A DNA stretch of 64,000 nt from Rhizobium sp. L51/94 (lineage in GTDB: Bacteria > Pseudomonadota > Alphaproteobacteria > Rhizobiales > Rhizobiaceae). The stretch spans positions 1,116,001 to 1,180,000 of the forward strand of contig NZ_CP072142.1 in the NCBI RefSeq assembly GCF_019355555.1, read 5' to 3'. Below are positions 20,364-22,909 of this stretch, in pieces. The notes under the pieces were generated by a model, which saw nothing but the letters and a program-made list of their open reading frames with translations, was not told the origin of the DNA and did not search any database. Each line of letters opens with the position of its first letter. Position 1 is the first letter of the stretch. The position numbers and the translations under genes are program-made.

Positions 20364-20468
20364 GTGAAACACACAGGAATTGATAACTCGGATGATTGCC
20401 TTTACTAACTTAACGAACTTGACGAAATGACAATGGCTGGCTATGTTGTTCTCAAAAGGTTGATTGTC

Positions 20469-21131
20469 ATGCCCGTCACGAAAACGTCAGCAAGCGAAAC
20501 TCCAAATATAGCGCTATCGATGAAGCTGCCCCGCAAGGCCGATTTCGAAAAAGCGTTGCTCAATCAGTATACCATGGCAGTGCAACTGAGCCAGAAGGCG
20601 GGCCATCAGGTGAGTTTCCGCGTCGTCGTGGATCCGCGCGCCGGAGCGCAAACAATTTCGATTGTCGAGAAAGACCCGCTGATTGGCGACGGTGCGTTTC
20701 CGGTCGAAGAGGCTGGCGAACCGGACGACGAACTGATGGCAGCCTTGTCCTCCGCACGAGCGCGCGGCCATCGCCGTGTTGCAGAGATCCTCAGCGAAGA
20801 CGATATGCTCAGAGCCAACGCCTTTTCAGATCTTATTGGCGTTTCGCGGGTCACGGTCAATACAAAGCGTCAAAACGGCCAGGTGCTCGGCCTGGATGGC
20901 GCCAAGCGAGGGTTCCGTTTCCCGGCGTGGCAGCTTGACCAGGACGGCCGACCCTATGCGGCGCTTCCAAAACTGCACGAGATCCTGACGGGTGCCTGGG
21001 CCGTTTACCGCTTCCTTGTTTCGCCCCACAGTGCGCTTGACGGTCGCACCGGGCTCGACGCCCTGAAGCGGGGCCAGGATGGCGACGTGATCGCCGCAGC
21101 CGAGGGCATTGCCCGCGGTGACTTCCGCTAA
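20469..21131 (+). CDS. antitoxin of a RES-type toxin-antitoxin pair
   Basis: 220 residues from ATG 20469 (AAAAGG upstream; an in-frame ATG at 20427 is less likely). The middle has a helix-turn-helix-like segment (ILSEDDMLRANAFSDLIGVSRVTVNTKRQ) and the C-terminus has the helical pattern of Xre/MbcA/ParS-type antitoxins (YAALPKLHEILTGAWAVYRFLVSPHSALDGRTGLDALKRG, a stretch where the toxin is bound, followed by DVIAAAEGIARGDF). Its TAA stop is directly followed by the toxin ATG. The N-terminal 90 residues are not familiar to me. Confidence 0.8.
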   Translation: MPVTKTSASETPNIALSMKLPRKADFEKALLNQYTMAVQLSQKAGHQVSFRVVVDPRAGAQTISIVEKDPLIGDGAFPVEEAGEPDDELMAALSSARARGHRRVAEILSEDDMLRANAFSDLIGVSRVTVNTKRQNGQVLGLDGAKRGFRFPAWQLDQDGRPYAALPKLHEILTGAWAVYRFLVSPHSALDGRTGLDALKRGQDGDVIAAAEGIARGDFR

Positions 21132-21749
21132 ATGACTGGTATCAAACCGCCTGCCTGTTTCGAACGTCAGCCGCTCGATATCGGAACGGTTCCTTCAGGG
21201 CGTCGCTTTGGCCGGATTTACGCAAGCGTCTTTTCGGACCCGTTAGGATTTGGAAAAACGCCGAGCCGTTTCAGCGACCCGCGCCGACGTGATGCAACGA
21301 AGCGCTTCGGCGTTCTTTATCTCGGCGAAACACTCAAGGTCTGCTTCCTAGAGGCGGTTCTGCGTGATCGCCGCGACGGTCTTGTCGGCGATCTTCCGAT
21401 CGATGAGAAAGAGATCTATGCGCGGCGCTACGCTGAGGTCGAGACGATCGCAGACCTCAGCCTTGTTGACCTGCGTGACGATCACCCGATCAGGATGGGG
21501 GTTCCGACTGACGTGACGAAATCATCACGTCAGAGCCTTGCGCGCTCCTGGGCGCTGGCTTTTCACGAACACCAGTCGCTTCCCGACGGTATCATCTATC
21601 CATCTCGCCTGAACGGGCATACGAACATTGCCGTCTTTGGGCGTGCCGTCTCCAAGCTGGCGCCGGCACGGGTCGTACCATTGATCGGCGCACCAGGCCT
21701 CGCCGTAGTCATCAATGACCTGCGGGTGAGCCTCGTCGATTTCCCTTGA
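21132..21749 (+). CDS. RES-domain toxin
   Basis: 205 residues. RES-fold landmarks: an N-terminal GRRFGRIYASVFSDPLGFGKTPSRFSDPR with the conserved R-x-Y and RFS-x-x, VLYLGETLKVCFLEAVLRD with the conserved Glu, and, late in the domain, HEHQSLPDGIIYPSRLNGHTNIAVFG with the YxS..N pattern (here Y, S and N). Tested RES toxins degrade NAD+. It starts on the base after the antitoxin stop, so the two form one operon. Confidence 0.88.
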   Translation: MTGIKPPACFERQPLDIGTVPSGRRFGRIYASVFSDPLGFGKTPSRFSDPRRRDATKRFGVLYLGETLKVCFLEAVLRDRRDGLVGDLPIDEKEIYARRYAEVETIADLSLVDLRDDHPIRMGVPTDVTKSSRQSLARSWALAFHEHQSLPDGIIYPSRLNGHTNIAVFGRAVSKLAPARVVPLIGAPGLAVVINDLRVSLVDFP

Positions 21750-22120
21750 AGCTTTGCTGATATGGGCGCCGGTCGCTATTTCCCTGCTCGGTTTCGGGCC
21801 CTCGGTCTTGACGGCCGCCTGAAATCCCGGTGGATCGAGGTGGACGAGGAAGCGCTCGATGATGAGCTCCGCTATCTGAGAACCGAAATCCATCGCTATT
21901 CAGACGCCGATCCTCCCGTTAAACGCCCCTTCTGCCTCCGACTGGTTCCGGGCCCGATAGCCATTTCTGCCCATCTTATGATCGGACCCATGCTTTGAGT
22001 GCATGGCCGACCTGAGTCTTTGCGTCTTATCTATGGGCGCGCAAGGGCCTATATTTCAATCATCGAAACGACGTTGGGACCAAGTAGGGTTGCTGGCGTC
22101 AAGAGACCTCACGAAAGGGG
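21750..22120. other. intergenic region with heat-shock-type promoter
   Basis: No convincing gene; a 78-codon open frame (21762-21998) shows no family features. The right end contains the likely promoter of the DUF1127 gene. Confidence 0.45.
22026..22054 (+). promoter_or_regulatory. RpoH-like promoter ahead of the DUF1127 gene
   Basis: CTTATC (22026-22031), 17-base spacer, CTATAT (22049-22054). This is near the alphaproteobacterial heat-shock sigma pattern (CTTG, about 17, CYTATnT). In Rhodobacter the matching locus is under RpoHI/RpoHII; here the assignment rests on position and partial match. Confidence 0.45.
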
Positions 22121-22126
22121 ATGATC

Positions 22127-22273
22127 ATGAACGTAGCACGCTCTTTCAACACTTGGCGCAAGTATCGTCAAACCGTAACCGAACTCGGCCGCATGAGCTC
22201 GCGTGAGCTACAGGACCTCGGCATCGATCGCGCCGACATTCACAGCGTAGCCCGCGCATCGGTTGCTCGCTAA
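22127..22273 (+). CDS. small DUF1127 protein (CcaF1-like)
   Basis: 48 residues. ATG 22127 is preferred over ATG 22121 because AAAGGGG (22114-22120) has the right spacing only to the former. The product (MNVARSFNTWRKYRQTV ... ELGRMSSRELQDLGIDRADI) has the DUF1127 pattern: basic N-terminal helix, then L..ms.reL.DiGi.R.di. Short Arg-rich DUF1127 proteins bind RNA in tested alphaproteobacteria, and CcaF1 of Rhodobacter affects maturation of the small RNAs encoded just downstream of it. Here too a set of CCUCCUCCC hairpins follows. Confidence 0.9.
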   Translation: MNVARSFNTWRKYRQTVTELGRMSSRELQDLGIDRADIHSVARASVAR

Positions 22274-22305
22274 GCGTTCGTCTCCAAGCCAATGTGATCG
22301 ACAAG

Positions 22306-22330
22306 ACGCCCGCTGATGATGCGGGCGTTT
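22306..22330 (+). terminator. intrinsic terminator or attenuator after the DUF1127 gene
   Basis: Stem ACGCCCGC (22306-22313) with GCGGGCGT (22321-22328), 7-base loop, followed by a short T tract (only TTTCT). The weak tract may allow read-through into the hairpin array. Confidence 0.7.
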
Positions 22331-22459
22331 CTATATTTGGCCTGCGACGAAACCCAGGGCTGGGGATTGCTTTCGTCGGAAAGAGGCCGTGCATTTCCGC
22401 ATAGCTGTTCTGCAGCAAAGTCTATTTAATGTGCGGAGAGAATTGGTATGTTGGTCCCA

Positions 22460-22616
22460 TCGAAGCGACGCACCTCCTCCCGCAGAGCTTCGAATTCAGA
22501 CGGCCCACTCCTCCTCCCAAGGGGCGTCTGTCGGAACAGCGGCACTCCTCCTCCCAGCCGTTGTTCGGTTCTTTTCGGAAAGCCTGCCGCACCTCCTCCC
22601 GCGGCAGGCTTTTTCA
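22460..22616 (+). ncRNA. tandem array of four CCUCCUCCC (cuckoo/CcsR-type) small-RNA hairpins
   Basis: Four successive stem-loops each present CCTCCTCCC in the loop: H1 stem TCGAAGC/GCTTCGA (22460-22493, motif 22473-22481); H2 CAGACG/CGTCTG (22497-22530, motif 22510-22518); H3 CGGAACAGCGGC/GCCGTTGTTCGG (22532-22568, motif 22547-22555); H4 AAGCCTGCCGC/GCGGCAGGCTT (22580-22611, motif 22592-22600), which ends in a T tract and so doubles as terminator. The loop motif is complementary to the Shine-Dalgarno sequence. The layout, DUF1127 gene then several such hairpins, equals the CcsR/cuckoo RNAs described in alphaproteobacteria. Separate small RNAs are probably cut from one transcript. Confidence 0.9.
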
Positions 22617-22909
22617 GTTTAAGGCCCGGATTCATCAAAGTCCTAGATCGAGCTGCAGTTCTTATCCTCTCTCTTAGGTGTTGAGCGACGAAAGGTTGGC
22701 CCCCAAGAGACGCACTGGACTTTTGAACGGGAACACGAGGCGAGCAGGGTCTCTGCAATCTCCAGCACCCTGGATCGGCGCAAGACAAGTGGGACGATCA
22801 TAGGGCTGAAACTTGCCGGCAAATTTCGCACTCGACATCGCGCCGCGATCCGCATAAAAAATATCACCATAGGCCAGAATTTTCTGGCGATAATCTTCAA
22901 AGGTGATCA

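Follow-up and report, generated by a model that had tools for sequence, protein, structure and literature searches.

A DUF1127 gene and a four-hairpin anti-Shine–Dalgarno RNA in Rhizobium sp. L51/94, probably two adjacent genes under one type of regulator

The question raised by this locus is whether a short DUF1127 gene and the hairpin array behind it are made as one transcript or as two. The window, i.e., the whole stretch of 64,000 nt analysed here (Rhizobium sp. L51/94, contig NZ_CP072142.1, positions 1,116,001 to 1,180,000), contains a short DUF1127 gene associated with a CcsR-like sRNA, which is how the CIN1 locus is described (PMC10253847). The pair resembles CcaF1–CcsR1–4 of Rhodobacter sphaeroides in that a DUF1127 gene is followed on the same strand by anti-Shine–Dalgarno RNAs and a 3′ terminator. 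However, the Rhodobacter genes are described as one RpoHI/RpoHII transcript cut by RNase E, with CcsR1–4 arising from the ccaF1 3′ UTR (PMC8625941), whereas in the window the DUF1127 gene is separated from the array by a terminator and a second promoter. Judged from the sequence elements listed here, the locus probably consists of two adjacent genes with a common type of regulator and separate transcripts, rather than a stress operon split by an attenuator.

21991–22013, + strand: VtlR/LsrB-like box of the DUF1127 gene, TGCT-N6-GCAT then GCATGGCCGACCT; its GCAT-N3-TG-N3-T part, at 22001–22013, has one mismatch (CG for TG)
22050–22055, + strand: −10 hexamer TATATT for the DUF1127 gene, 49 nt downstream of GCAT, conserved in the alignment
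22127–22273, + strand: DUF1127 small-protein gene, 48 aa (PF06568, 53.7 bits; cut-off 23.3), with Shine–Dalgarno sequence AAAGGGG at 22114–22120
22304–22330, + strand: intrinsic terminator ending the DUF1127 gene (fold; conserved at 46 of the 51 pairs defined below)
22390–22411, + strand: VtlR/LsrB-like box before the array, reading TGCA-N5-GCAT and then GCATAGCTGTTCT, with GCAT-N3-TG-N3-T matched exactly at 22399–22411
22447–22452, + strand: −10 hexamer TATGTT for the array, 48 nt downstream of GCAT; transcription predicted to begin at about 22459
22460–22493, + strand: hairpin 1, with CCTCCTCCC in the loop at 22473–22481 (motif search, fold, covariation)
22497–22530, + strand: hairpin 2, with CCTCCTCCC at 22510–22518 (Rfam ar14, fold; compensatory change in 7 of 9 base pairs)
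22534–22566, + strand: hairpin 3, with CCTCCTCCC at 22547–22555 (Rfam ar14, fold; compensatory change in 6 of 10 base pairs)
22577–22614, + strand: hairpin 4, the terminator, with CCTCCTCCC at 22592–22600 (Rfam ar14, fold)

The hairpin array and its relatives

The motif CCTCCTCCC occurs four times in the window, each time on the + strand (22473, 22510, 22547 and 22592), against an expectation of 0.51, and four copies were reached in none of 100 shuffles. Folding of 22456–22616 gave four hairpins at −67.5 kcal/mol (z = −5.2), with none of 200 shuffles equally stable. An earlier note on this DNA had described four hairpins with the motif in the loop, the last being a terminator, and both the motif search and the fold agree with it; the hairpin starts that it gave (22455, 22495, 22531 and 22578) lie within a few bases of the folded ones. 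A search with the Rfam covariance models returned ar14 (RF02344) over 22491–22616, i.e., hairpins 2–4, at 104.9 bits against a gathering score of 58.8, as the sole gathering-level RNA match in the window. As in ar14/cuckoo RNAs, CCUCCUCCC is unpaired in every loop, and the stems are variable with pairing kept. The 48-codon DUF1127 gene named in the earlier note is confirmed by its PF06568 match, and so is its view of the locus as a rhizobial cuckoo/CcsR-type anti-Shine–Dalgarno RNA paired with such a gene; the window locus is a real, well-conserved example of a known pairing. Among the Rhodobacter RNAs, RS0680a is presumably a CcsR. It is described as two stem-loops with the motif in each, and the same source reports RNAs with three and four CCUCCUCCC hairpins, of which SmelA075 is stress-induced and processed (PMC3927594).

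The earlier note had also equated the number of hairpins with that of CcsR1–4. This comparison is not supported, as CcsR1–4 are four homologous sRNAs (PMC8307010), and the four-hairpin relative is instead SmelA099 of S. meliloti pSymA, a form already published (Reinkensmeier 2011, PMC3927594). In the S. meliloti stretch around the SmelA099 coordinates of PMC7143759 (L123), there are four motifs at a spacing similar to that of the window (offsets 1681, 1718, 1754 and 1800 of the reverse complement), the same upstream box by sequence, and a convergent dinB 3′ end downstream (58% identical over 120 aa, against only 32 aa left in the window). Unlike the window, this 3-kb stretch showed no upstream DUF1127 frame when its ORFs were inspected by eye.

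The conservation of the array was assessed at DUF1127 loci, for which we used the best 80 of at least 152 confirmed relatives, from named genomes, and the window; a pair was defined as at least two copies of CCTCCTCC 100–500 nt past the DUF1127 stop. An array lies within 500 nt at 51 loci and is absent from 30, the latter counting L049, which has only 143 nt of downstream sequence; gene and array are thus linked in 50 of the best 80 of 152 relatives and in the window. The 51 pairs are related sequences, some of them near copies, so that the counts are not independent events. An alignment was built from 47 of the 51 DUF1127-following arrays (46 distinct rows; four were left out for their spacing or a cut end), in which the motif is intact in 45, 46, 42 and 47 arrays for hairpins 1, 2, 3 and 4, respectively. 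Column identity is 99.3% in the motif, 89.9% in the stems of hairpins 1–3 and 96.6% in the stem of hairpin 4. Changes on both sides were found in 18 of 42 base pairs, with 96.5% of cells paired (alignment A1); neither value was reached in any of 500 shuffles, and slid controls of the same alignment gave 38–48% of cells paired. The motifs are kept and the stems vary with compensation, contrary to the pattern (motifs not conserved, stems varying freely) that the earlier note had named as refuting its view. Hairpin 4 (22577–22614), unlike hairpins 1–3, is near-invariant across the 47 arrays and the own-genome paralogues L008 and L011, which suggests either a constraint beyond termination or gene conversion.

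Arrays were also sampled irrespective of DUF1127. This sample, which is not random, holds 96 arrays of at least three CCTCCTCC from 95 loci (five of the six own-genome ar14 loci, L007–L011; 30 loci retrieved by the family-wide motif scan; and 60 chosen among the matches listed by that scan); L010, with two exact motifs, gave no array, and L012, a weak match with no exact motif, was left out. Of 302 motifs in the 96 arrays, 93% lie inside a stem scoring at least 7, against 8% with shuffled flanks. Of 297 genomes in the family, 219 contain three-motif arrays; read backwards, the pattern occurs in none. Three-hairpin arrays are repeated in tandem, one per ~150–160 nt, with seven copies in L037 and five or more in L040. 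Matches to this segment of the window were found in 518 plasmid records, and in 114 of these they cover at least 80% of its length, consistent with the accessory-replicon setting proposed in the earlier note.

Promoters and VtlR/LsrB-type boxes

The VtlR box has the consensus GCAT-N3-TG-N3-T (PMC7486931), and a box of this kind precedes both promoters of the window, exactly for the array and with one mismatch for the DUF1127 gene. Across the best 80 of 152 relatives and the window, a conserved block TGCA-N6-GCATAGCTGCACTGCA, which contains the VtlR box, lies ~75 nt before the first motif in the 51 pairs. The exact box precedes the array in 46 of the 51, at −74/−75 from the first motif (once at −78), against 0.13% in shuffles; L059 was scored as lacking it because of a degenerate first motif, and another comparison shows its box. 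In 44 of the 51 array promoters, a TATNNT element stands 48 nt past GCAT, so that transcription would begin at the base of hairpin 1. Before the DUF1127 gene, in the same set of loci, the exact box is present in 34 of 51 pairs and 17 of 30 array-less loci, the TG or CG form in 48 and 20, and TGC-N7-GCA(T/G) in 49 and 26, the last being a count without a shuffle control. The −10 of the DUF1127 gene stands 49 nt after GCAT in 30 of the 51 pairs and at 48 or 51 nt in five more, with 16 giving no match in the strict search. Box (at most one mismatch) and −10 together were found at 46 of 51 array promoters and 38 of 51 DUF1127 promoters, compared with 0.5% in shuffles, again for the best 80 of 152 relatives and the window. 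The −35 is poor at both promoters.

The array box of the window has a 5-nt spacer, compared with 6 nt in 40 of the 51 pairs, and the only other pair scored with 5 nt is L046. The T-N11-A form reported for NfeR1 is therefore broken in the window, and the shorter spacer may weaken regulator binding.

The −35 consensus of RpoH is CTTGAA. The best hexamer at the right spacing in the window, CTTATC, agrees with it at 3/6 positions, and over the 81 DUF1127 loci (eight of which gave no −10) a 4/6 match at 16–18 nt spacing was found in seven and nothing better in any, much like random hexamers. The RpoH-like promoter of the earlier note is thus not upheld, the conserved upstream element being the VtlR/LsrB-type LysR box; with no conserved CTTGAA −35 at the 81 loci, an RpoHI/RpoHII promoter as in CcaF1–CcsR was rejected. 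That the locus is an RpoH stress operon with its terminator as attenuator would accord with the RpoHI/RpoHII control reported for the Rhodobacter CcsR RNAs (PMC10253847), but given the chance-level −35 and a terminator that also occurs at 14 of the 30 loci counted as array-less, we regard it as highly improbable.

The box is shared with three Agrobacterium promoters, those of abcR1, atu1667 and vrsA, to which VtlR binds (PMC7486931); they have GCAT-N3-TG-N3-T boxes and were examined by gel shift, whereas the boxes of the window are read from the sequence. In the same source, atu1667 is given as the orthologue of the VtlR-activated Brucella small proteins BAB1_0914 and BAB2_0512. Three Brucella DUF1127 genes are described as positively regulated by VtlR (PMC12595884). 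On the RNA side, NfeR1/ar14 (RF02344) resembles the window's array in its Rfam match, LysR box, sigma70-type −10 and anti-Shine–Dalgarno loops; it is activated by LsrB, and its loops silence ntrB/ntrBC, the RNA pairing with ntrB at the ribosome binding site (PMC10746234). It differs in having three hairpins and a published sigma70 −35, with TGCA-N6-GCAT at −72 to −60 (PMC10746234), whereas the window combines four hairpins with a poor −35, a 5-nt spacer and a GCAT ending ~57 nt before the predicted start.

A candidate for the regulator is encoded in the same genome, where a trxB-like gene, a LysR gene and two ar15 (abcR1/2) places stand in a row (L194), with a box 5′ of one ar15 place. The place of vtlR is likewise between a trxB-like gene and the abcR genes (PMC7486931). 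The trxB and LysR identities come from reading the ORFs, and the LysR protein is, by position and ORF reading, a likely VtlR/LsrB orthologue and the likely activator of the window's promoters. A genome-wide scan for box and −10 returned 14 places, compared with two in the reversed control: three ar14 arrays (the window's included), one DUF1127 gene, one small ORF and nine more. The scan did not return the window's DUF1127 gene, whose box has CG, nor the ar14 copies L007 and L010 or an abcR promoter. The small ORF (L192, C1:2037660–2037900; 49 aa) is preceded by a perfect TGCA-N6-GCATGGCTGCACTG box, with a −10 at the 49-nt distance also seen at DUF1127 genes, which makes it a candidate for additional VtlR/LsrB control. 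The long box is matched perfectly once more at L193 (C1:1985360–1985383, − strand), where no small ORF or RNA was visible nearby.

One transcript or two

The earlier note had placed an attenuator-like terminator between gene and array. The terminator is present: the GC-rich hairpin at 22304–22330 begins 30 nt past the DUF1127 stop and has a T-rich tail (−19 kcal/mol; z = −2.45; 5 of 200 shuffles equally stable). For the best 80 of 152 relatives and the window, a terminator within 90 nt of the stop was found in 46 of 51 pairs and in 14 of the 30 loci counted as array-less, against 13% in shuffles; at the pairs, it mostly has the stem ACGCCCGC and most often lies 31–32 nt past the stop. The attenuation of a co-transcript is not supported, since the array has a promoter of its own in 46 of 51 pairs and the terminator occurs at array-less loci as well; a simpler reading is that the terminator marks where the DUF1127 gene ends, and its role as an array-specific attenuator is weakened accordingly. 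As it is commoner in the pairs than at the array-less loci, insulation of the two units is possible. A different arrangement is described for a DUF1127 gene of S. meliloti, in which a uORF-dependent attenuation, presumably involving Rho, takes place upstream of the gene (PMC12218461).

In the reading of two separate transcripts, the DUF1127 gene would be expressed from a LysR-activated promoter (box at ~22001, −10 at 22050) and end at its own terminator, 22304–22330. The sRNA gene would be driven by a promoter built like the first (box 22399–22411, −10 at 22447), with a predicted start at ~22459, at or next to hairpin 1, and would end at hairpin 4, giving a transcript of ~155 nt with four anti-Shine–Dalgarno loops. 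By analogy with NfeR1, this RNA would most likely act in trans, blocking the ribosome binding sites of several mRNAs with redundant loops. The DUF1127 protein may help in RNA maturation, as CcaF1 does in Rhodobacter; in Agrobacterium, DUF1127 proteins are described as binding the kinase PhoR (PMC12501420).

A Rhodobacter-like operon, in which the array is co-transcribed from the upstream promoter by partial read-through of the 22304 terminator and the RNA is released by RNase E and the DUF1127 protein, would explain why gene and array occur together in 50 of the best 80 of 152 DUF1127 relatives and in the window, and it has a precedent in the co-transcribed and processed CcaF1–CcsR (PMC10253847, PMC8625941). 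Moreover, among the matches listed, the first motif lies 19–28 nt past the stop in 22 of 33 linked arrays, which leaves no room for a promoter after the DUF1127 gene. In the window, however, the first motif is 199 nt past the stop, and gaps of this kind hold a terminator and a promoter at a fixed distance; the same box is also found at four of five four-hairpin arrays that are free of DUF1127. For the window, a single operon is therefore unlikely, although read-through of the terminator may give some co-transcript. Another view is that the window's copy is a non-expressed duplicate, the work being done by the chromosomal copies and the one at C2:61.6 kb. The genome has six ar14 places, five of them over the cut-off, a northern blot reliably detected only one of six S. 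meliloti NfeR1-type copies (PMC7143759), and the window's box has its shortened spacer. Against this, the copy retains all four motifs with their stems, the −10 and an exact downstream half-box, which makes a silent copy quite improbable.

The preferred reading of two adjacent genes joins three published strands, which the literature surveyed takes up separately: cuckoo RNAs beside DUF1127, VtlR/LsrB control of DUF1127 and LsrB control of NfeR1. In a partial survey of the literature, we found no work joining cuckoo arrays, DUF1127 linkage and VtlR/LsrB boxes, and earlier cuckoo, CcaF1, NfeR1 or LysR–sRNA work may cover portions of this; DUF1127 is absent from the text of PMC10746234, which treats LsrB with a cuckoo RNA. 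The prediction is that rhizobial DUF1127-linked anti-Shine–Dalgarno RNAs answer to the symbiosis/virulence regulator VtlR/LsrB, not to heat-shock sigma factors.

Two possible wirings in the family, and the surroundings of the locus

The sampled arrays point to a wider picture, on which we are evenly divided, in which the family has two wirings. The first would use a single VtlR/LsrB-type box for a DUF1127–array transcript with the first motif 19–28 nt past the stop; in the second, represented by this window and the Rhizobium/Agrobacterium type, each gene would have its own box (48/49 nt to the −10) with a terminator between, so that the input is the same and the protein-to-RNA ratio is set by two promoters rather than by RNA processing. 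Within the partial literature survey, this two-promoter wiring is the only point that we did not find in print. A DUF1127 match within 850 nt upstream was found for 33 of the 96 arrays among the matches listed (absence refers to up to 850 nt, or to the shorter sequence available near the end of a stretch), and the first motif lies 19–28 nt past the stop in 22, 56–68 nt in two and 96–297 nt in nine. In the 24 short-gap arrays among these, the 110 nt preceding the first motif never contain an exact box, and 14 of the arrays have a box (at most one mismatch) with a −10 before the most upstream DUF1127 gene, compared with 0.6% in shuffles; nine of the 24 have two upstream DUF1127 matches. Of the nine long-gap arrays among the matches listed, seven, including the window's, have a box before the array.

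Arrays free of DUF1127 are less uniform. In five four-hairpin arrays of this kind (L008, L011, L030, L031 and L137), the exact box stands at −74/−75 in four, and in three when a −10 is also required. Among 60 DUF1127-free arrays, from which those with less than 140 nt of upstream sequence and one further L040 array had been dropped, 23 have box and −10 (0.5% in shuffled pair-locus promoters), and the own-genome copy L007 does not. This counts against a uniform picture, and many three-hairpin arrays must use something else or a diverged box. At L026, L027, L028 and L035, where no DUF1127 gene was found, the arrays lie shortly past the stop of a protein whose end looks, by eye, like that of a phasin; a phasin-like gene is perhaps another host for 3′-UTR-type cuckoo arrays.

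The wiring largely follows the DUF1127 subfamily. In a tree of the DUF1127 proteins, a Rhizobium-type clade (88 rows, support 100/100) holds long-gap or array-less rows only, with no short-gap array among its 88 rows, and the short-gap rows lie outside it. Two long-gap rows, L033 and L175, are also outside, L033 among short-gap rows and with an array lacking a box. With 48 columns and 57 of 94 inner branches open, the tree is used for this coarse split only, and its Rhizobium-type clade was gathered by similarity to the window. Natural fused and split pairs offer a way to ask whether the DUF1127 protein acts on the adjacent RNA.

Within the genome of the window, there are six DUF1127 matches, five of them over the cut-off; among the arrays L007, L008, L009 (the window's) and L011, a DUF1127 gene lies within 850 nt upstream only at L009. 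L012 (2000–3020; from C1:2868834) has the opposite order to the window's pair: two DUF1127 genes stand behind a weak ar14 match whose motifs are degenerate.

Shuffled sequences fold as well as the leader of the window's DUF1127 gene (z = −0.59), and a structured leader was rejected, its consensus being weak (10 base pairs, both-side changes in five). The Shine–Dalgarno sequence (22107–22120 region) can pair with CCTC just 5′ of it in a small hairpin, with modest support from 59 leaders. A duplex calculation for self-targeting of this leader by the array gave no clear result.

Downstream of the array, 22638–22733 on the − strand is a convergent 32-aa remnant of a dinB 3′ end, with 68.8% identity to the C-terminal end of the DinB encoded next to the array of L011; dinB occupies this downstream place in 16 of the 51 pair loci, the window included, and at SmelA099. 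Just upstream of the pair, 20427–21749 encodes a RES-domain protein (PF08808) preceded by a protein whose match to an Xre/MbcA/ParS antitoxin stays below the cut-off, and the two are a probable RES–Xre toxin–antitoxin pair.
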